From Pseudacidobacterium ailaaui (GTDB taxonomy: Bacteria; Acidobacteriota; Terriglobia; Terriglobales; Acidobacteriaceae): DNA of 64,000 nucleotides. Positions 14,219-23,182 of the stretch are shown piece by piece. Under the pieces are notes generated by a model that saw only the letters and a program-made list of their open reading frames with translations, searched no databases and had not been told where the DNA came from. The DNA lies in assembly GCF_000688455.1 (NCBI RefSeq), contig NZ_JIAL01000001.1, positions 1,457,001 through 1,521,000 on the forward strand, read 5' to 3'. Position 1 is the stretch's first letter; each line of letters begins with the position of its first letter. The position numbers were made by a program, and so were the translations under genes.

Positions 14219-15688
14219 TTACCTGTGAATCAGAGTCAGGGAGCGAGAAACTTCGATATTCGCTTTACTTCCACGAGGCCAGGAAATGGATAGCGACGCT
14301 CCTCCCTTGGGGCGGTTTGACGCCGTCACACTCCCACCATGCGCGCGCACTACGGCTTCAACAAAGGCAAGGCCAAGACCATGTCCTTTCGAGCCTCTTC
14401 CTTTTACCCGCTGCTCGAATATATGGCGGCTGATCTCTGCAGAAAATCCGGGCCCGTCATCTTCGACAATCAGTGTTGCAAGATCTTCGTTTGCGCTGAG
14501 TGTGATAAAGACGGTGCATGATGCTGGCAAATGATTTAGTTCATTATCCAGAAGATTGGCAATTACACGATGGAGAAGCGCCGCATCTGCCAATACCATA
14601 ACAGGACCCGCACTGCGAAGATTGACCCTAAGCCCTTTTTCTGACATCGATGGCTCATACAGATCGATCATGACTCTCATCAGTTCATCAAGATCGACTT
14701 CTGTCAGAGACAGTCTCAGCGCATCGGCCTTTGCTTCAGCTACGTCGAGAGAAACATTCAGGTATTCCGTCAATCGATCCAATTCATCTATGGCCGAAAC
14801 AAGGGGCTCGCTTTGCCCGGCCTTAAAGTCTCCACACAACGCTATCTCCAGCTTTCCACGAATCGCAGTTAATGGGCTGCGAAGGTCATGAGCTAGAGCC
14901 CCAGTAATGGTATGCAGTTGATGCATCGAACTTTCAATTCGATCCAGCATGTGGTTGAGCGTCTGGGCAAGATGCCCTATTTCATCGTTTCGCTTGCTGG
15001 TCGGGACTCTGCGGCTCAAATCAGATTGCCCAATTTGGGATGCAGCCTCGGTTATCTTGCGAACAAGGCCCAGCATACGTTTAGTAACAAAAAACACAAT
15101 GGCTGAATCGAACAGAACAATCAGTAACCAGAGACAGAAAAATCGCAAGCGGAGATTCCTCAGTACACGCAATTCATCTCGCTCGGAAAGTCCGAGATAA
15201 ATGCGACTCCCATCATCGAGTTGCACTGATGCGATTCGAAATGGAGAATCGAAACCTTTGACATGCAGGTCGTATGGAACTTCAGAAATGAACTTGCGCT
15301 CACGAATCGCTGCAAGATTTGCCAATCCATCCCCAGAGCCTACCCATAGCTTCAAAGCGCCGTCATTCCCGACTTGTAGAAAAAAAACGGAGTCGTTCTC
15401 ATTGCTGTTCGAACGAAGCTTATAGGAAACCTCTCTGCTCGCAAGTTCTGCAACTTCGCCTACTACTCTGCTGTAGAGGCGATCCTTGGGCGTTCGCCCA
15501 GCCACATCACGGAGAACGGCAACTTCTCCCGTAAGCCATGCATCGCTTCTACTCTGAATATCATTCGCTATGAAGCGATGAAGCATAACAAAGATGAGCA
15601 TGGTTCCCACTGCAAACGCAACCGTTCCCCAAAGAGAAATGTGCCATGCGGCGCTCCGCATAAGAGGATTAGCGGTCTTTGAGTACAT
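14219..15688 (-). CDS. Membrane sensor histidine kinase of an OmpR-type two-component system
   Basis: The 489-residue kinase has two membrane spans (about residues 15-40 and 182-203) enclosing a periplasmic sensor region of some 140 residues. A HAMP domain (about 203-255) follows, then the HisKA phosphoacceptor His267 in ALAHDLRSPLTAIRGKLE, and an ATPase domain with NDELNHLP (N box), VEDDGPGFS (G1) and GHGLGLAFVEAVV (G2). I chose the ATG with a GAGG site; it overlaps the response regulator end by 20 nt. A second ATG 8 bp after the regulator stop codon has no ribosome binding site. The pair is divergent from the type III polyketide synthase gene and may control it. The stimulus is unknown. Base composition is lower in GC than in the flanks. 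Confidence 0.92.
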   Translation of the reverse strand: MYSKTANPLMRSAAWHISLWGTVAFAVGTMLIFVMLHRFIANDIQSRSDAWLTGEVAVLRDVAGRTPKDRLYSRVVGEVAELASREVSYKLRSNSNENDSVFFLQVGNDGALKLWVGSGDGLANLAAIRERKFISEVPYDLHVKGFDSPFRIASVQLDDGSRIYLGLSERDELRVLRNLRLRFFCLWLLIVLFDSAIVFFVTKRMLGLVRKITEAASQIGQSDLSRRVPTSKRNDEIGHLAQTLNHMLDRIESSMHQLHTITGALAHDLRSPLTAIRGKLEIALCGDFKAGQSEPLVSAIDELDRLTEYLNVSLDVAEAKADALRLSLTEVDLDELMRVMIDLYEPSMSEKGLRVNLRSAGPVMVLADAALLHRVIANLLDNELNHLPASCTVFITLSANEDLATLIVEDDGPGFSAEISRHIFEQRVKGRGSKGHGLGLAFVEAVVRAHGGSVTASNRPKGGASLSISWPRGSKANIEVSRSLTLIHR

Positions 15689-16346
15689 ATCCAATACCTC
15701 GTACGGTTCGGATGAGCGGTTCGCGGCCTTCTGTATCCACTTTGCCGCGCAAACGGTAGATATGCACATCAACAACGTTGGTGTTTGGCTGGAATCGCAT
15801 TCCCCATACTTCGGAGAGCAGCATCGAGCGAGTGATGACACGACCCGCATGTCTACATAAATAAGCCAGAAGCACAAACTCCTGCGGGGTTAGATTTAGG
15901 ACCTCTCCCCCGCGAGAAGCCCTACGATTGATGAAATCCAGTTCCAGATCCAGTACCCGGAGACGAGCTGCTTCTTCAATGGGAGCCGCATTGCGCCGCA
16001 AGAGATTGCGCAGTCTGGCCAACAATTCTGCCAGTGCAAAAGGCTTTGTCAGGTAGTCGTCTCCGCCTTGCTCCAGACCTTTGACTCTGTCATCCACTGA
16101 TCTTCTGGCTGACAGTATTAATACTGGACTACGGATGCCGGATTGTCGGAGTTGGAGAATCAGATCAATGCCATCCTGATCCGGAAGTCCCAAATCAACA
16201 ATGAGTCCGTCGTAGGCCTGCCTGGATGCCAACTGAGTTGCGGCACTCCCATTTTCTGCTGTATCTACTTCGTAGCCGGCCTCAACCAAAGATTGCTTGA
16301 CAAAACTTGAAATCTCCGGTTCGTCCTCAACCAGTAGAAGTCGCAT
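15669..16346 (-). CDS. OmpR-family response regulator
   Basis: The 225-residue protein has a receiver domain with the acidic pair in LLVEDEPEI, phosphoacceptor Asp51 in VDLGLPD, and Lys101 in YLTKPFA. A winged-helix DNA-binding domain follows, with LTPQEFVLLAYL and VDVHIYRLRGKVD and the C-terminal IRTVRGIGYVL hairpin. It is the first gene of a two-gene operon with the histidine kinase. Its start lies about 410 bp from the polyketide synthase start on the opposite strand, and this shared region is the natural place for its binding site. Closest in layout to the QseB/CzcR/PmrA group, but the signal cannot be told. Confidence 0.93.
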   Translation of the reverse strand: MRLLLVEDEPEISSFVKQSLVEAGYEVDTAENGSAATQLASRQAYDGLIVDLGLPDQDGIDLILQLRQSGIRSPVLILSARRSVDDRVKGLEQGGDDYLTKPFALAELLARLRNLLRRNAAPIEEAARLRVLDLELDFINRRASRGGEVLNLTPQEFVLLAYLCRHAGRVITRSMLLSEVWGMRFQPNTNVVDVHIYRLRGKVDTEGREPLIRTVRGIGYVLKDR

Positions 16347-16754: not shown

Positions 16755-17816
16755 ATGACGACAGCGTATCTGAATCGCATTGCCACTGCCGTACCAGAAC
16801 ACGATATACATGACGCCTTCGTCGTCTTTGCAGAAAAGATGCTTGGCGATCAACGATTGCGTACGATCTTCCGACGCATGGCAAGCCGCGCCAATATTGC
16901 GCATCGCTACTCCTTCTTTGAGCCTCAGGAAGGATATGAAAAGTTCTTTTCACATGAAGTCAATGAGTCGTATCAACTTGGCAATCTGCCTAGTACCGCG
17001 CGGCGTATGGAGATTTTCGAGAAGAGCGCCCCTGTGCTCATGAAGATGGCCGTGGACCGTCTTGCGCTCAATGCACAGGAGCGAGCCGGCATAACACATG
17101 TCCTGGTGACCTGCTGCACCGGACTCTATGCTCCGGGGCTGGACTTTGAGATTGTCGATCATCTGGGGCTTTCCACAGACGTTGAACGAACCATGATCGG
17201 CTTCATGGGTTGCTATGCAGCGATCAATGCATTGAAGCTGGCACGGCATATCATACGTTCAGATCCTGAGGCCGGCGTTCTGATGCTCAATCTGGAGTTG
17301 TGCTCCCTGCATTTACAGGAGACACAGGAACTGGAGCAGGTGCTCTCCTTTCTGATCTTTGCCGATGGTGCGGCGGCGAGCCTGATAACTGCGCGTAATC
17401 AGGGCTTTGCTTTAGATAGCTTCAAAACAATCACCATACCTGGTACAAGGGGGTTAATTACATGGAAGATTCGTGGTCTCGGCTTTGACATGCTGCTCTC
17501 AGGACAAGTGCCAAGAGAATTAGGAAACGCGCTGCCTCAGAGCGGATTGATGGCCGAACGAGACGACATCCACCTGTGGGCAGTACATCCCGGCGGACGT
17601 TCTATTCTGGACGCCGTAGAGAAAGGATTAGAACTTCCTGCCGATGCGTTGAAGGCATCACGCGAAGTGTTGGCTTCCTTTGGCAATATGTCTTCAGCAA
17701 CCATAATGTTTGTGTTACAGCGGATCATGCAGCAGGCGCGCCCTGGACAGCGTGGATGTGCGATGTCCTTTGGTCCGGGCCTGACTGCGGAAACGATGCG
17801 CTTCCATGCAGTCTAG
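16755..17816 (+). CDS. Type III polyketide synthase (chalcone/alkylresorcinol synthase family)
   Basis: The 353-residue enzyme has the full catalytic triad: Cys121 in VTCCTGLYAPGLD, His278 in WAVHPGGRSILD and Asn311 in FGNMSSATIM. GFMGCYAAINAL and FADGAAA are further family landmarks. Type III synthases extend a CoA-linked starter with malonyl-CoA and cyclise it to resorcinols, pyrones or related aromatics. A GGAGGT site precedes the ATG by 10 nt. The methyltransferase start overlaps its stop, so the two are translationally coupled. With a methyltransferase and an FAD oxidoreductase nearby, the set resembles Streptomyces srsABC, which makes methylated phenolic lipids; the product here is inferred, not known. 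Confidence 0.93.
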   Translation: MTTAYLNRIATAVPEHDIHDAFVVFAEKMLGDQRLRTIFRRMASRANIAHRYSFFEPQEGYEKFFSHEVNESYQLGNLPSTARRMEIFEKSAPVLMKMAVDRLALNAQERAGITHVLVTCCTGLYAPGLDFEIVDHLGLSTDVERTMIGFMGCYAAINALKLARHIIRSDPEAGVLMLNLELCSLHLQETQELEQVLSFLIFADGAAASLITARNQGFALDSFKTITIPGTRGLITWKIRGLGFDMLLSGQVPRELGNALPQSGLMAERDDIHLWAVHPGGRSILDAVEKGLELPADALKASREVLASFGNMSSATIMFVLQRIMQQARPGQRGCAMSFGPGLTAETMRFHAV

Positions 17817-18603
17817 TGCCAAAATCCATCTGCGTACTCAGACCCTTCTTCTCCAAGCATTGCGTTGGATGACCGGCTTGCCATCGGAGGCCAGGCTTGA
17901 TTTCAATCACCGGGTCTCTCCTCACCAGTTGCCGGAACTAATGGATGGCGATTGTAGCTATGAAGATTTTTGTGATTGTCTGCGCAGCCTGGAGCAGGTG
18001 AATCGCTGGCTGTTAGGTTATCGACCAACATTGGCCTGGCTGAAGCGGCTGTCCCATGGATTGCCTCACCCCATACACATCGTCGACGTCGGTTGTGGCG
18101 GCGGCGATCTGCTGCGGAAGATTGCAGACTGGGCAGCGAAGGAAGGCGTTGCTGTCCAGCTTACTGGCATGGATCTGAATCCTTATTCTGCGCGAGTAGC
18201 AGCGGACTCCACTCCACAGAAATCTGGTATTACCTGGGTGACCGGCGATGCGCTGGCCTATCGGCCAGACAAGCCTGTCGATGTCATCGTGAGTTCACTG
18301 ATGGCACATCATCTGGAAGACAGCGATATCGTTTTGCTGCTGCGATGGATGGAAGCGACGGCGCGACTAGGCTGGTTTATCAATGATCTGGAGCGGTCTG
18401 AGCATGCCTGTTTGATGTTCGCATGCATAGCGAAAGTGGTGAGATGGCATCCATTTGTGCGGCACGATGGGCCGGTATCTTTTAGGCGGGCCTTTCGAAA
18501 AGAGGATTGGATACATCTGCTGGCTGCGGCGGATGTACCTCAGGAGGCAATCACGATAGAACATTGGCGCCCGGGACGACTGTGTGTAGGGCGATGGAAA
18601 TAA
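17806..18603 (+). CDS. Class I SAM-dependent methyltransferase of the polyketide operon
   Basis: The 265-residue protein shows motif I VDVGCGGGDLLRKIA, the acidic motif II loop in LTGMDLNPYSARVA, and motif III in WVTGDALAYRP, the order of a Rossmann-type methyltransferase. The start codon overlaps the synthase stop by 11 nt. Methyltransferases at this position act on the ring or hydroxyl of the phenolic product made by the type III synthase in characterised clusters; that role is inferred here from position. No membrane span is present. Confidence 0.9.
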   Translation: MQSSAKIHLRTQTLLLQALRWMTGLPSEARLDFNHRVSPHQLPELMDGDCSYEDFCDCLRSLEQVNRWLLGYRPTLAWLKRLSHGLPHPIHIVDVGCGGGDLLRKIADWAAKEGVAVQLTGMDLNPYSARVAADSTPQKSGITWVTGDALAYRPDKPVDVIVSSLMAHHLEDSDIVLLLRWMEATARLGWFINDLERSEHACLMFACIAKVVRWHPFVRHDGPVSFRRAFRKEDWIHLLAAADVPQEAITIEHWRPGRLCVGRWK

Positions 18604-18706
18604 GGCTGATGGCTATACAGCGTCTGGTCTGTGCAGCAAGTGCCACCCAGCGCCTTCGCCCTTTTGGGACGCACCCCCTCATCTCAAATTCTCTGAGAGG
18701 CAAATC

Positions 18707-19372
18707 ATGTCGACTTCTGCGCTAAGAGCACCCACCTCTTCCCGTTCCCGATTCAAGATGATTCTCTGGATTTCGCTTGGCCTTACTGTACTCTTTGTCT
18801 TCATTACCTCAGAGCTGCTACTCATCACCGACTATCCGATGTACCACGCCTACCGTTTACAGTTGATCGCCGACCGCGGTTTTCTCATTCCTCATACTAT
18901 TGCTGGAATTCTTGCTCTTTTCATCGGCCCCATTAATTTCTCTTCGCGTATCCGAGAACGCCATACCCGACTGCACCGCGTCCTTGGCTGTATCTATACG
19001 ATTTCTGTCTTTGTCGGCTCTTATACTGGGATTGCCCTCGCGGCTGGCAGGCCGGGGCTTCCCGGAACATCCATGCAGGCCGCTGCATGGATGGTGTGTA
19101 CCACGGCAGCTTTTCTGGCCGCCCGCACTCGCCAGTTCACCATACACCGCCAATGGATGGCTCGCTCCTACGCCGTTACCTTTACCTTCATTTCCAGCCG
19201 CATACTGAATCTTTGGCCGGCCTACTGGAGACACCTTGGCGATGTCTTGTCCGCTGTTGGCGTGATCGCCTTCACACTTGCCTCGCTGCTAATCGTAGAT
19301 ATTGGTCTCGATTGGCGTGAACTTACCACCTGTCGTAACGAATCATCAGCCAATAGGTGTTACAAGAATTAA
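18707..19372 (+). CDS. DUF2306 multi-pass membrane protein
   Basis: The 221-residue protein has about six hydrophobic spans and the DUF2306 signature: a GILALFIGPINF span followed by RLHRVLGCIYT, and a later HRQWMARSYAVTF. Function of the family is unknown; the paired His-Arg motifs at membrane edges resemble haem- or quinone-associated membrane proteins, which is only suggestive. An AGAGG site precedes the ATG. It lies about 100 bp after the methyltransferase on the same strand and is probably co-transcribed. A membrane partner would fit a lipid product. Confidence 0.8.
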   Translation: MSTSALRAPTSSRSRFKMILWISLGLTVLFVFITSELLLITDYPMYHAYRLQLIADRGFLIPHTIAGILALFIGPINFSSRIRERHTRLHRVLGCIYTISVFVGSYTGIALAAGRPGLPGTSMQAAAWMVCTTAAFLAARTRQFTIHRQWMARSYAVTFTFISSRILNLWPAYWRHLGDVLSAVGVIAFTLASLLIVDIGLDWRELTTCRNESSANRCYKN

Positions 19373-19399
19373 CAGACAGACTTAGCCAGGGTCCCATTT

Positions 19400-20173
19400 C
19401 TAAAAGCTGGTCCCGACCAGGTCCGAGCTGATTACAGGTCCATAGCCACCGAGTTGTCCAACAATGACTGCCACCGCAGGCTCCTCTCCTTCCAGTACCC
19501 ACACCCTCACGTCTTTTGGCTGTAGACCAAGTAGCCGCGCTATCAGTCTCACAAATCCGTTTATTTCCGGATGAATGCGAAACACTGTCGCAGGCAGGCC
19601 CTGCCCATTCAGGTACACGGTCTGCTCATCCTCTGGTGAGATTTGGAGCTGAATCAACCTTCCACCTCCGACTGGTGCCAGCATCCATACACGAAACGGT
19701 GTCGTATGGGAAGGAACATTCAGCAGCAATGTCCCTACCATACCGTTCGCGATGTCTTTCGGAAAATTCATATGCTTACTCTCGACGTGTGTCTTGCCAT
19801 TCTTGTCCGTTGTGCGAATGATCACCATGCCGGTAGCAGCTTCTACTGTGAAATCAATGGGCCTTGTAAAGAACGGGCCTTCCTGGATGTGATGATTTCG
19901 CACCAATCGAAACGTACCCTGCTGCACATAGGTGGTCTCTTCATCATCGATCGAGCCATCAACAAAGCGATATGTCATGCGCATCGTCACCTCATCGCCT
20001 TGCACAACCTGCAAGAACTCCCCTCTGGCAATCGTTTTTCCATCCTCAGAGCGGGCCACCATGAATCTCTGCATGGGTCGTTGAATATGTCTCACTGGAA
20101 TCTGTTCAGCAATGGCCACCATACCGATCGTCATCGCCCCCAAAATGACGATCAGGAATTTGTTTCTCCTCAT
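19400..20173 (-). CDS. Exported protein of unknown function
   Basis: I do not recognise a family. The 257 residues start with a signal peptide (MRRNKFLIVILGAMTIGMVAIA) and continue as a mainly beta protein with alternating hydrophobic and charged residues. The segment with FTVEAATGMVIIRTTDKNGK and the closing GLQPKDVRVWVLEGEEPAVAVIVGQLGGYGP look like an exported beta-barrel or attachment domain such as those in DUF3108-like proteins. It lies opposite to its neighbours, between the DUF2306 gene and the FAD oxidoreductase, and its 3' end is 28 bp from the DUF2306 end. Confidence 0.75.
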   Translation of the reverse strand: MRRNKFLIVILGAMTIGMVAIAEQIPVRHIQRPMQRFMVARSEDGKTIARGEFLQVVQGDEVTMRMTYRFVDGSIDDEETTYVQQGTFRLVRNHHIQEGPFFTRPIDFTVEAATGMVIIRTTDKNGKTHVESKHMNFPKDIANGMVGTLLLNVPSHTTPFRVWMLAPVGGGRLIQLQISPEDEQTVYLNGQGLPATVFRIHPEINGFVRLIARLLGLQPKDVRVWVLEGEEPAVAVIVGQLGGYGPVISSDLVGTSF

Positions 20174-20218
20174 GAAACACCTCGGTCTAACACCTTAGAC
20201 GTCAAACGATTCCAGCTA

Positions 20219-20232
20219 TATTGGATTCAATA
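20219..20232. promoter_or_regulatory. Inverted repeat between divergent genes
   Basis: TATTG-GATT-CAATA is a perfect 5-bp inverted repeat in the 142-bp gap between the unknown exported protein and the FAD oxidoreductase. The surrounding sequence is AT-rich relative to the genes. It could be an operator for either gene. No regulator can be assigned. Confidence 0.35.
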
Positions 20233-20315
20233 TGACGATTTAGACAGAATGGCCCGCCAAGCTGTTTTTTTGCGCGTCTACTAGAAGGATGGACTACAGG
20301 TTCACGGAATTTCCA

Positions 20316-21449
20316 ATGACTAGGAGTGCCACTTTGCAAGAAGAAGTCCTCATCCTCGGTGGTGGAGTGGCAGGCTGCGCGGCTGCGATTGCGCTCGCTC
20401 AAAAAGGACGAAGCGTCACCCTCATCGAACGTGAGCGCACGCCGCGCCATAAGGTATGTGGGGAGTTTCTCAGTGGTGAGGCCCTCGAAGATCTGCATGC
20501 GCTCGGCATCGATGTCGTGTCACTTGGCGCCGTGCCGATCAATTACGTTCGCCTCGCAGCTGCACAGCGGGCCGCGGAAGCACCTTTGCCGTTTCCGGCC
20601 AAGTCGCTCACGCGCAAGGCGCTCGATAAAGCCCTCATCTCCAGGGCCATCGCCGTAGGAGTTCGAGTAGAGCTCGGTCGCAGCGTACAATCGCTCAACC
20701 GCACCGCAGCTAGTACATGGCAGGTAACTCTGGAGGATGGCTCTATACGTGAAGCTCCGACGGTCTTTCTCGCCACTGGCAAGCACGATCTCCGAGGTCA
20801 CGCGCGTCCTAAGGACCCTCATCGGTGGGTTGCCTTCAAAATGTATTACCGGCTGTCTCCTGCTCAGGCGGATGATCTGGGCGACGCCTCTGAGCTTACG
20901 CTTTACTCCGGAGGCTACGGTGGCATTCAGCCTGTGGAAGATGGCATCACAAATTTTTGCTGTGTGGTGCAACGGCGGTATTTTGAGCGTGCCGGTCTTC
21001 GCTGGGAGGGTCTGATTGCAAATATGCAGAAGGACTGCCCCCACCTGGCTATGCGTCTCGCCGGAGCGCAACCGTTGCTCGATAAGCCGATAGCCATCAC
21101 CCATATTCCGTATGGCTACCTCCGGCGCACAACTGAAGATAGCCTCTACTGCATTGGCGATCAGGCCGCCGTCATCCCATCGTTCACCGGCGATGGAATA
21201 TCCGTTGCACTGCATACCGCCCGGTGTGCTGCCGCAGCCTATCTGGCCAGAGAGTCTTCGTCGGTCTTTCAACCAAAACTCCGTTCGGCAATGCTACCCC
21301 AGATGCGACTTGCCCAGGCTGCCGCGAATGGCTTAAACAACGCCCTTGCGCGCGCTGTGCTTCCGTTCTTTCTTCGCGTCTGGCCGGGTGCAATGCAGGT
21401 AACAGCCAGGCTCACCCGCGTCACCCAACCAGCTGCGCTTGCACCTTAG
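20316..21449 (+). CDS. FAD-dependent oxidoreductase (geranylgeranyl-reductase / hydroxylase type)
   Basis: The 377-residue protein begins with the dinucleotide fold LILGGGVAGCAAAIALAQKG, then ERERTPRHKVCGEFLS, the pattern of geranylgeranyl-reductase-like and lipid-acting flavoproteins, and has the second FAD motif LYCIGDQAAVIPSFTGDGISVAL. A hydrophobic C-terminal segment suggests membrane association. The ATG at 20289 was rejected because AGAAGG touches it directly; the chosen one has GGA at 8 nt. In characterised phenolic-lipid clusters a flavoprotein hydroxylates the resorcinol to a quinone precursor. It may do that here, or reduce a prenyl chain. Confidence 0.85.
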   Translation: MTRSATLQEEVLILGGGVAGCAAAIALAQKGRSVTLIERERTPRHKVCGEFLSGEALEDLHALGIDVVSLGAVPINYVRLAAAQRAAEAPLPFPAKSLTRKALDKALISRAIAVGVRVELGRSVQSLNRTAASTWQVTLEDGSIREAPTVFLATGKHDLRGHARPKDPHRWVAFKMYYRLSPAQADDLGDASELTLYSGGYGGIQPVEDGITNFCCVVQRRYFERAGLRWEGLIANMQKDCPHLAMRLAGAQPLLDKPIAITHIPYGYLRRTTEDSLYCIGDQAAVIPSFTGDGISVALHTARCAAAAYLARESSSVFQPKLRSAMLPQMRLAQAAANGLNNALARAVLPFFLRVWPGAMQVTARLTRVTQPAALAP

Positions 21450-21500
21450 GCGTTCGCCAGTTGAACGGAAGCAGCAAAATCTGCTTAGGGGAGATAGGAA

Positions 21501-22064
21501 ATGAAACTCTTCACAGTCTTTATTCTCACGGTCATACTTGCTCCTGGGGCTCACGCCCAGCGTCAAAGCTTCACTGTTGATCCCGATGCAAGTCAGGTCA
21601 GCATCACGCTCAATACAACCCACGAAGTCGTCCATGGAATGTTTCATATTCAATCTGGCCTGGTTGAATTTGACCGCAGCAGTTCTACGATGTCCGGCTC
21701 AGTGATTGTACTGGCGAACTCTGGGAAGACAGGGAACAGCAGCCGCGACAAGAAGATGGACAAGGACATTCTCAAGGTGGACCAATACACGAAGATTTCT
21801 TTTGCTCCTACAACCTTTGCCGGGACGATCGCGCCTTCAGGTAACTCAACCATTCAGGTCAGGGGTGTATTTACCTTGCTCGGCAATCCTCACGACCTGA
21901 CGGTTCCCATGCAGATTCACATCGATGGCCCCAGGGCAACAGCAAGGGCGCAATTCACAATTCCTTATGTACAGTGGGGTCTCAGAAATCCGAGCTTCTT
22001 GTTCTGGAAAGCCGAGGATTACGTAGCGATTTCTCTGAATCTTGTCGGCAAGCTTTCCAACTAA
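21501..22064 (+). CDS. YceI-family periplasmic lipid-binding protein
   Basis: The 187-residue protein has a signal peptide ending AHAQ and the YceI fold: SFTVDPDASQVSITLN at the start, the KMDKDILKVDQYTKISF segment, and GVFTLLGNPHDLTVPMQIHI. Family members are extended lipocalin-like barrels that bind polyisoprenoids or other amphipathic lipids in the periplasm. It follows the FAD oxidoreductase by about 50 bp on the same strand, with a GGAGATAGGA-type ribosome binding site. In this setting it may carry or store the lipid product of the polyketide operon; that is an inference from position. Confidence 0.88.
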   Translation: MKLFTVFILTVILAPGAHAQRQSFTVDPDASQVSITLNTTHEVVHGMFHIQSGLVEFDRSSSTMSGSVIVLANSGKTGNSSRDKKMDKDILKVDQYTKISFAPTTFAGTIAPSGNSTIQVRGVFTLLGNPHDLTVPMQIHIDGPRATARAQFTIPYVQWGLRNPSFLFWKAEDYVAISLNLVGKLSN

Positions 22065-22213: not shown

Positions 22214-23182
22214 CTATTTCACCTTTTTGTTCAGAAAAGCCAGGATGTACCCTGAAATCGTCCCGGAATCCTCTTCCAGAGCAAAATGTCCTGAATCCAC
22301 AAAGTGGATCTCGGCCTCAGGAACATCGCGCTTGAACGCTTCAGCGCCCGCCGGCAGGAAAATGGGATCATTTTTCCCCCACATCGCCAGCACCGGCGGC
22401 TTATATCTGCGCAGCGCTTCATGCCATTGCGGATATTGCTTTACATTGTTCTGGTAGTCATAGAACAGCGCAAGCTGGATCACATCATTGCCGGGACGGT
22501 CGAGCGTCATCTGGTCAAACATATAACTATCAGGACTCACATACTCCGGATGACTGTATCCCTGCGTGTACTGGTACTTCGTCACTTCAAGCGTGAGCAG
22601 GTCTCGAACCCTCTTCTCATTGGCCGGGCTTTTCTCTTTCCAATAGGGAATAATGGATTCGGCCCAGAAGGGGCTCAAGCCTTCTTCATATGCGTTGCCA
22701 TTCTGCGTAATGATCGCCTGAATCCGCTCAGGGTGCCTCAGGAAAAGCCGAAACCCAATCGGAGAACCGTAGTCCTGGATATAAATGCTGTATTTGTTCA
22801 CTCCAACCGAATCCAGGAAGCGGTCCATCACTTCCGCAATGTGGTCAAATGTGTAGTCAAACTGGTCGGAAGGCGGCTGGTCGCTGTAACCGAACCCCGG
22901 CATATCGGCGGCAATCACGTGATACTTTCCGGACAATTCCGGGATCAGGTCGCGGAACATGTGTGACGAAGATGGAAATCCATGCAGCAGCACAACGGTG
23001 TGACGAGACGGATCGCCTGCTTCCCGATAGAAAATCTTCACACCATCCACAGCTTGTGTCTTATATCGAATTTGTTTCATGCTTTGGCTCCTTTCACTTG
23101 CCAGCGCATTCAGTGCCATGATGAGGAACCCAATGCCAATGCCAATGCTAAGGTTCCATACAAATTTCATAATGTTGATCAT
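22214..23182 (-). CDS. Exported alpha/beta hydrolase (epoxide hydrolase / haloalkane dehalogenase-like)
   Basis: The 322-residue protein has an N-terminal signal or anchor segment and a hydrolase domain with the oxyanion motif LLHGFPSSSHMF, nucleophile Asp137 in YIQDYGSPIGF, and catalytic His299 in DSGHFALEED. An Asp at the nucleophile elbow points to C-halogen or epoxide hydrolysis, not to esterase activity. The start is preceded by GGAAAG. It is divergent from the HD-domain gene. A copy of the CGACCAGTCGG motif lies about 165 bp upstream, shared with the divergent gene. Confidence 0.87.
   Translation of the reverse strand: MINIMKFVWNLSIGIGIGFLIMALNALASERSQSMKQIRYKTQAVDGVKIFYREAGDPSRHTVVLLHGFPSSSHMFRDLIPELSGKYHVIAADMPGFGYSDQPPSDQFDYTFDHIAEVMDRFLDSVGVNKYSIYIQDYGSPIGFRLFLRHPERIQAIITQNGNAYEEGLSPFWAESIIPYWKEKSPANEKRVRDLLTLEVTKYQYTQGYSHPEYVSPDSYMFDQMTLDRPGNDVIQLALFYDYQNNVKQYPQWHEALRRYKPPVLAMWGKNDPIFLPAGAEAFKRDVPEAEIHFVDSGHFALEEDSGTISGYILAFLNKKVK

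Follow-up and report, generated by a model that had tools for sequence, protein, structure and literature searches.

Related Operons and Envelope Lipid Carriers

Type III polyketide synthases (PKSs) are encoded in one operon with a methyltransferase and a FAD oxidoreductase in cyanobacteria (hidABC, hierridin type) and in Planctomycetota (mtr-fdo-t3pks), and operons with these enzyme types make alkylresorcinol-derived lipids (PMC10896814, PMC8086630). The planctomycete synthases form pentadecyl- and heptadecylresorcinols (PMC10896814), the cyanobacterial genes have been reported in the order hidC-hidA-hidB (PMC8086630), and one operon of this kind also includes a gene for a lipid/isoprenoid-binding protein. 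Similarly, srsABC of Streptomyces griseus combines a type III PKS with a methyltransferase and a flavin-type oxygenase, yielding methylated phenolic lipids and quinones (PMC6669644, PMC10896814), and its methyltransferase, SrsB, is an isoprenylcysteine-carboxyl-methyltransferase (ICMT)-type protein (PMC6669644).

Two further protein families are of interest here. YceI proteins bind ubiquinone-8, and the periplasmic YceI lipocalin BcnA of Burkholderia is encoded with LcoA, a cytochrome b561 membrane protein proposed to be redox-active, in an operon that contains no lipid-synthesis genes; both proteins guard against lipid peroxidation (PMC9113575). Epoxidation in fungal pramanicin biosynthesis requires PraC, a DUF2306 protein encoded together with a polyketide synthase and a FAD monooxygenase; a scaffold role has also been discussed for PraC (PMC12895699). 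YceI and DUF2306 proteins are both widespread, but little is known of the natural ligands of the former and the reactions of the latter. In the locus described here, both are encoded beside a synthase of predictable product class, which makes ligand and reaction directly testable. No publication joining a type III PKS and YceI was found in the literature searched.

Organization and Integrity of the Locus

The window, i.e., the whole stretch of 64,000 nucleotides from the soil bacterium Pseudacidobacterium ailaaui (Acidobacteriaceae) that was analysed, contains six genes at 16755-22064 that a preliminary description had grouped together, and all of them have intact frames with the coordinates reported there. 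The group is real, as indicated by these frames, the family matches of its products and its recurrence in 28 loci. Purifying selection acts on all six genes, including the one on the opposite strand, with dN values of 0.09-0.28 against dS values from ~0.9 to saturation. Recurrence of the set in 28 distinct loci, together with dN below dS for each gene, shows that the grouping is not due to chance.

The borders of the cassette, drawn around these six genes in the preliminary description, proved slightly narrow, since a kinase/regulator pair at 14219-16346 also belongs to it. This pair, which accompanies the related modules in 12 of the 28 loci (several contigs being too short to decide), is encoded on the - strand, divergently from the PKS gene, and consists of a sensor histidine kinase (HAMP-HisKA-HATPase; 14219-15688) and an OmpR-type response regulator (15669-16346). 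The open frame of the kinase begins at 15877, but its probable start is at 15688, because its homologues begin at the same point. The regulator subfamily was found in 20 places in 150 genomes, 11 of which are at type III PKS modules, while at least five further places adjoin a YceI or YceI-like gene. Moreover, kinase, regulator and YceI occur together without any type III PKS at three loci (L244, L245 and L251), and the link between the two-component system and YceI also holds where the synthase is absent. The alpha/beta hydrolase gene at 22214-23182 was considered as a further member and rejected, given that no close copy adjoins the modules of relatives.

Conservation and Relation to Known Operons

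The 28 loci, all from Acidobacteriaceae and here called clade I, encode PKSs that are 73-83% identical and form one clade with support of 100/100 in the PKS tree. Cultured relatives that possess the module include Edaphobacter lichenicola M8UP30, Granulicella mallensis X5P3 and Granulicella rosea DSM 18704. DUF2306 is encoded in every one of them (28/28) and in none of the 57 sister-clade PKS loci, in which PKS, methyltransferase (MT) and FAD genes are present. This distribution amounts to one change on the PKS tree, and the DUF2306-bearing form has a single origin. The order PKS-MT-DUF2306-(EXP)-FAD-YceI, where EXP stands for the opposite-strand gene of an exported LolA-like protein, is kept in most of clade I while the outer flanks vary, and PKS, MT and DUF2306 remain linked even in those clade I loci where the YceI or LolA-like gene is missing. 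Thus, the co-occurrence of type III PKS, DUF2306 and YceI in other genomes, on which the preliminary description had staked its reading, is conserved, and the conservation of the cassette supports its view that genes for lipid-handling proteins of the membrane and periplasm have been added to an operon of the phenolic-lipid type. Among the loci read, conservation of the full set is limited to Acidobacteriaceae.

Judged by gene content and order from published descriptions, the core appears to be an alkylresorcinol operon of the hierridin/planctomycete type rather than srsABC. Its PKS-MT-FAD order equals that reported for hidC-hidA-hidB, with DUF2306 and the opposite-strand gene interposed; DUF2306, the LolA-like gene and the two-component system set the cassette apart, none having been described for hidABC or mtr-fdo-t3pks. 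The likeness to srsABC noted in the preliminary description holds for the logic of the pathway but not for the type of methyltransferase, which is of the ICMT type in SrsB and a class I SAM enzyme in the window. This difference rules out membership of the cassette in srsABC, which also lacks DUF2306, YceI and LolA-like genes, and the hidABC and mtr-fdo-t3pks operons are nearer in gene content and order. Homologues of the core, mostly in the same order, are present in the sister-clade Acidobacteriaceae and in alphaproteobacterial plasmid operons, with identities of 46-66% for PKS, 44-55% for MT and 36-52% for the FAD enzyme. DUF2306 is absent from the six alphaproteobacterial plasmid regions read, and YceI lies near one sister-clade locus only (L128). 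The enzymes of the synthesis half belong to a known kind, whereas DUF2306 and the putative carriers added to them have not been described together, as far as the literature was searched.

Enzymes of the Synthesis Core

The type III PKS (16755-17816, + strand) matches both the N- and C-terminal Chal_sti_synt domains above cut-off (PF00195/PF02797, E 6e-18 and 7e-23), presents the Cys-His-Asn catalytic triad as C153, H278 and N311, and retains PKS18-like residues of the long-acyl tunnel. Its W237 aligns with the Trp of PKS11, at the ArsB/PKS11 position where resorcinol formation depends on this residue and where the pyrone synthase PKS18 has Leu (PMC5916927). The enzyme is probably alkylresorcinol-forming, as far as these residues indicate. 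The MT gene (17806-18603, + strand) overlaps that of the synthase by 11 bp, its ATG lying inside the PKS gene, and the same junction is found in relatives. Its product matches Methyltransf_25 (E 1e-11), and in the profile search it matched class I SAM families and none of the ICMT type. The third enzyme is a FAD-dependent oxidoreductase/monooxygenase of the geranylgeranyl-reductase superfamily (20289-21449, + strand; alternative start possible at the ATG at 20316), which reaches 103 bits with the GG-red-SF profile, below the curated cut-off of 158.8.

Membrane Protein and Putative Periplasmic Carriers

DUF2306 (18707-19372, + strand) is a polytopic membrane protein of 221 aa that matches PF10067 with 78.2 bits against a gathering score of 31.6 (E 1e-21). 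Residues H63, H90 and H147 are invariant in 27 diverse proteins of the family, as are Arg and Trp residues family-wide, while H47 and H176 are conserved in the module clade. Profile comparison relates the protein to DUF420/CtaM, a group tied to copper-oxidase assembly. PraC belongs to the same Pfam family and shares the company of a polyketide synthase and a FAD monooxygenase, but is a fungal protein of 393 aa from a PKS-NRPS pathway, whereas the window protein is bacterial, shorter and encoded with a type III PKS. A relationship to cytochrome b561, to which LcoA belongs, was not found at the sequence level, with an hhalign probability of 0.6% for PF01292 and no Pfam match; the cassette thereby differs from the LcoA-BcnA system, in which a b561 gene lies upstream of the YceI gene. 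The structure model is of moderate quality (pLDDT 77), and Foldseek returned nothing under E 0.001 with it. Superposition on b561 (4o6y) gave Z 9.3 over 158 residues, a value tied with unrelated helical bundles, and in the model the His residues are predicted to lie near helix starts on both membrane sides. A Granulicella plasmid carries a DUF2306 homologue with no type III PKS gene nearby.

The exported protein (19400-20173, - strand), described initially as of unknown family, indeed matches no Pfam family, but it is predicted to adopt the LolA/LolB/EipB-type half-barrel of lipid carriers. Its model (pLDDT 85.8) superposes on 6ntr with Z 13.8 over 206 residues, on LmcA with Z 9.8 and on LolA with Z 8.6, and Foldseek also linked it to 6ntr (E 3e-6). 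Distant homologues (33-42% identity) are located away from type III PKS genes in the loci read, so there is no general link between the LolA-like family and polyketides.

The last gene (21501-22064, + strand) encodes an exported lipocalin-like protein of the YceI family (PF04264, 73.7 bits against a cut-off of 23.7, E 3e-20) with a signal-like sequence at its N-terminus (MKLFTVFILTVILAPGAHAQ). The combination of type III PKS, FAD enzyme and YceI is also found at 15 of the 57 loci of a second, PKS11-like type of synthase, with which YceI is associated independently. Neither of the two putative carriers is strictly needed, since the remaining 42 of these 57 loci are without YceI and, within clade I, YceI is missing in at least five loci and the LolA-like gene in six. 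The losses of the two genes in clade I look complementary, as no complete locus lacks both, except for the decayed L036. Suggestive as this is, chance alone would give only about one double loss and, therefore, the pattern is not claimed.

Proposed Function and Alternatives

The gene content points to an envelope phenolic-lipid cassette that would make a methylated, oxidised alkylresorcinol or (hydro)quinone, with DUF2306 acting in the membrane and the YceI and LolA-like proteins carrying the lipid in the periplasm, a proposal whose chances we regard as about even. Firstly, the type III PKS would add malonyl units to a long-chain acyl starter and fold the product to an alkylresorcinol. Secondly, the coupled MT may methylate the ring, and the flavoprotein may hydroxylate or oxidise it toward a hydroquinone or quinone, as proposed for related operons. 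DUF2306, as a His-containing redox-type protein, would then have the lipid as its target in the inner membrane, the most likely activity being oxidative tailoring as in the case of PraC, and this is the least certain step. Finally, the lipid could be bound and carried in the periplasm by YceI and the LolA-like protein, and the set would be controlled by the divergent kinase and regulator. A bolder version, tentative and rather unlikely, is an envelope redox-lipid cycle, in which the operon would supply the cell with its own quinone-like lipid, held in the periplasm by YceI and the LolA-like protein and charged or tailored in the membrane by DUF2306, a CtaM relative that would act as a redox enzyme with a metal or heme, under the YceI-linked two-component system.

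Among the alternatives, the one that survives best is that a redox-active polyketide lipid held by YceI scavenges lipid peroxyl radicals or serves as an electron shuttle across the envelope, with DUF2306 re-reducing it in parallel to LcoA/BcnA. This function is possible but doubtful. It is consistent with the protective role of BcnA/LcoA and the ubiquinone-8 binding of YceI (PMC9113575), with the regulator's link to YceI outside PKS modules, and with the His residues on both predicted membrane sides of DUF2306 and the superposition of its model on b561. However, that superposition is within reach of unrelated helical bundles, sequence kinship to PF01292 is lacking, and the retention of DUF2306 in loci without YceI fits tailoring better than recycling.

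DUF2306 might instead be a membrane scaffold or flippase, not a catalyst, through which the completed phenolic lipid would reach the carriers in the periplasm. A small polytopic protein encoded between synthesis and carrier genes would suit this role, as would the scaffold function discussed for PraC (PMC12895699), but the family-wide invariant His, Arg and Trp and the kinship to CtaM/DUF420 argue for a metal or redox role and make it distinctly unlikely.

It is more improbable still that YceI, the two-component system and the LolA-like gene form an independent envelope-stress unit merely beside a phenolic-lipid operon, as the three loci with kinase, regulator and YceI but no type III PKS might suggest, since the interleaved gene order is kept in most of clade I while the flanks change, and YceI is associated independently with a second type of synthase. 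The recurrence of type III PKS, FAD enzyme and YceI with this other synthase type also suggests that carrying polyketide phenolic lipids in the periplasm is a recurring theme in Acidobacteriaceae.

Gene organization of the locus

The genome carrying the window consists of one contig of 3.69 Mb, and its relatives are Acidobacteriaceae. All six genes listed in the preliminary description, which proposed a phenolic-lipid gene group resembling srsABC with additional DUF2306, YceI and exported-protein genes, were recovered, each with an unbroken reading frame. The type III polyketide synthase (PKS, 16755-17816, + strand) and the methyltransferase (MT, 17806-18603, +) overlap by 11 bp, the PKS stop codon lying within the MT gene, and this junction is identical in relatives, which suggests that the two genes are translationally coupled. 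The DUF2306 gene (18707-19372, +) follows the MT on the same strand, while the gene of the exported protein (19400-20173, -) is reversed and diverges from that of the FAD enzyme (20289-21449, +), which is followed at its 3' end by YceI (21501-22064, +). Upstream of the PKS, a sensor kinase (14219-15688, -) and an OmpR-type regulator (15669-16346, -) are transcribed divergently; judged by comparison with relatives, the kinase probably starts at 15688, giving a shorter frame than the longest open one. Past the module, the opposite strand encodes an alpha/beta hydrolase resembling haloalkane dehalogenases, with a hydrophobic segment at its N terminus (22214-23182), which is not conserved together with the module.

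Core enzymes and their relation to known operons

The window PKS contains the Cys-His-Asn triad, and its residues T122, A126 and C183 align with T144, A148 and C205 of PKS18, the tunnel residues for the binding of long acyl chains. Moreover, W237 occupies the alignment position of the PKS11 Trp (4jao); a Trp there is reportedly indispensable if ArsB is to form resorcinols, and FtpA, SrsA, PKS10 and PKS11 share it (PMC5916927). Because the triad, the tunnel residues and W237 are all present, the first product is likely to be a long-chain alkylresorcinol. The match of the FAD enzyme to the geranylgeranyl-reductase superfamily does not reach the cut-off, and among solved structures its similarity to MHPCO oxygenase, squalene monooxygenase and halogenases is weak.

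The biosynthetic core belongs to an already known kind of alkylresorcinol operon. The likeness to srsABC is limited by the methyltransferase, since SrsB is of the ICMT type whereas the window MT belongs to the class I SAM enzymes. The same three genes occur on alphaproteobacterial plasmids, in most cases in the same order (identity to the window proteins 44-50% for MT and 36-44% for FAD), and the same gene types form the cyanobacterial hidABC operon (PMC8086630) and mtr-fdo-t3pks of Planctomycetota, whose PKSs produce pentadecyl- and heptadecylresorcinols (PMC10896814). In the open-access literature, to which the search was confined, an extension comprising DUF2306, a LolA-like protein and YceI with a two-component system was not found; the sole hint of anything similar is one of the planctomycete operons, that of 'Saltatorellus ferox', which also encodes a lipoprotein and a putative lipid/isoprenoid-binding protein. 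The conserved extension is a variant on the known alkylresorcinol core.

Conservation and decay of the cassette

A contig search with seven PKSs as queries yielded 80 loci, which fall into two groups; the taxonomic label is Acidobacteriaceae or Acidobacteria for nearly all of them and Verrucomicrobia for one. The first, clade I, comprises 28 distinct loci (the window, L034, L036, L037 and L052-L075) with PKSs 73-83% identical to that of the window. DUF2306 is present in all 28, the opposite-strand gene and YceI are each intact in 20, several of the remaining loci being broken, rearranged or truncated at contig ends, and the kinase/regulator pair accompanies 12. The second group consists of 57 distinct sister loci (PKS identity 56-66%) with the order PKS-MT-FAD and no DUF2306; in a few, MT or FAD was undetected or the contig end was reached. 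One of them, in Terriglobus roseus (L128), has a YceI gene, 59% identical, about 2 kb past FAD. In the PKS tree, the DUF2306-bearing loci form a single group with support of 100/100 and one state change. Granulicella mallensis X5P3, Granulicella sp. L46 and a further genome (G064) each carry one locus of either kind, and these are therefore not interchangeable alleles. The outer flanks vary between genomes, which defines the borders of the cassette, and dN is far below dS for all six genes.

Two loci are cases of natural decay. In Acidobacterium sp. S8 (G070; L162:6126-12669), the PKS has been lost and only remnants of MT are left, while YceI-FAD-EXP-DUF2306, EXP being the exported protein, and the kinase/regulator pair are retained. 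This genome also carries a sister-type PKS-MT-FAD set elsewhere. In genome G072 (L036:11375-12740), the FAD gene terminates early, its final fifth lying inverted just downstream, and YceI is only partly left.

The DUF2306 protein

None of the other added proteins is as conserved as DUF2306, whose mean identity to the window protein is 77%. Among 27 diverse family members, H63, H90, R91, H147, W150, R153 and R165 show little or no variation (H63, H90, R91 and H147 none), and H47 and H176 are invariant inside the module clade. According to the topology read from the helix order of an AlphaFold model of moderate confidence (pLDDT 77), H90 and H147 should lie near the starts of two helices beginning on one side of the membrane, and H63 and H176 near helix starts on the opposite side. 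Profile comparison relates the H147 region to DUF420/CtaM (probability 87%, E 4e-6; Pfam E 0.0024) and shows no such link to b561 (0.6%). The helix motif of the HRxWM region is common to DUF2306 and the DUF420/CtaM copper-oxidase assembly proteins.

Quinol and cytochrome oxidases that contain copper depend on CtaM (PMC9145763, PMC13344008), and the only DUF2306 member found with a tested role is fungal PraC, on which an epoxidation depends (PMC12895699). Owing to the conserved residues, the kinship with DUF420/CtaM and the need for PraC in an epoxidation, our best guess is that DUF2306 would act oxidatively on the lipid in a metal- or heme-dependent manner. The main alternative for the module protein is the recycling of a quinone. 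A homologue with 37% identity adjoins a phytanoyl-CoA dioxygenase family gene on plasmid pACIX902 of Granulicella tundricola (L204:4911-6756).

Putative periplasmic carriers

The exported protein has no Pfam family. Its model (pLDDT 85.8) matches DUF1849/EipB (Z 13.8 over 206 residues), as well as YmcC-like proteins, LmcA, LolA, LolB, RseB and ependymin-related proteins; several of these matches bind lipids or lipoproteins. The ligands of YceI proteins are isoprenoids, and one purified from the periplasm contained ubiquinone-8; moreover, the Burkholderia YceI protein BcnA counters lipid peroxyl radicals jointly with a cytochrome b561 (PMC9113575). Taken together, the exported protein and YceI look like putative periplasmic lipid carriers for the product of the operon.

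Association of YceI with the regulator and a second synthase type

Most other type III PKS genes in Acidobacteriaceae belong to a second type, which has mycobacterial PKS11 as a relative. FAD and YceI genes adjoin the PKS in 15 of the 57 type III PKS loci outside the module's own group, namely the PKS11-like loci L047, L051, L163-L169, L205, L206, L212, L222, L228 and L232. Since genomes of several Mb contain one to six YceI genes, such adjacency would be expected by chance at approximately one locus in 100 or fewer. A kinase/regulator pair of the window's subfamily is also present at six of the 15. This subfamily, defined by at least 57% identity to the window regulator, was found in 20 places in 150 genomes: five at the clade I module, including the decayed locus of Acidobacterium sp. 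S8, six beside the second synthase type, and at least five others adjacent to YceI or YceI-like genes with no type III PKS (L244, L245, L247, L248 and L251). The subfamily looks like a YceI-linked two-component system and, given these placements, the regulator and YceI form one linked unit, with two different type III PKS systems attached to it.
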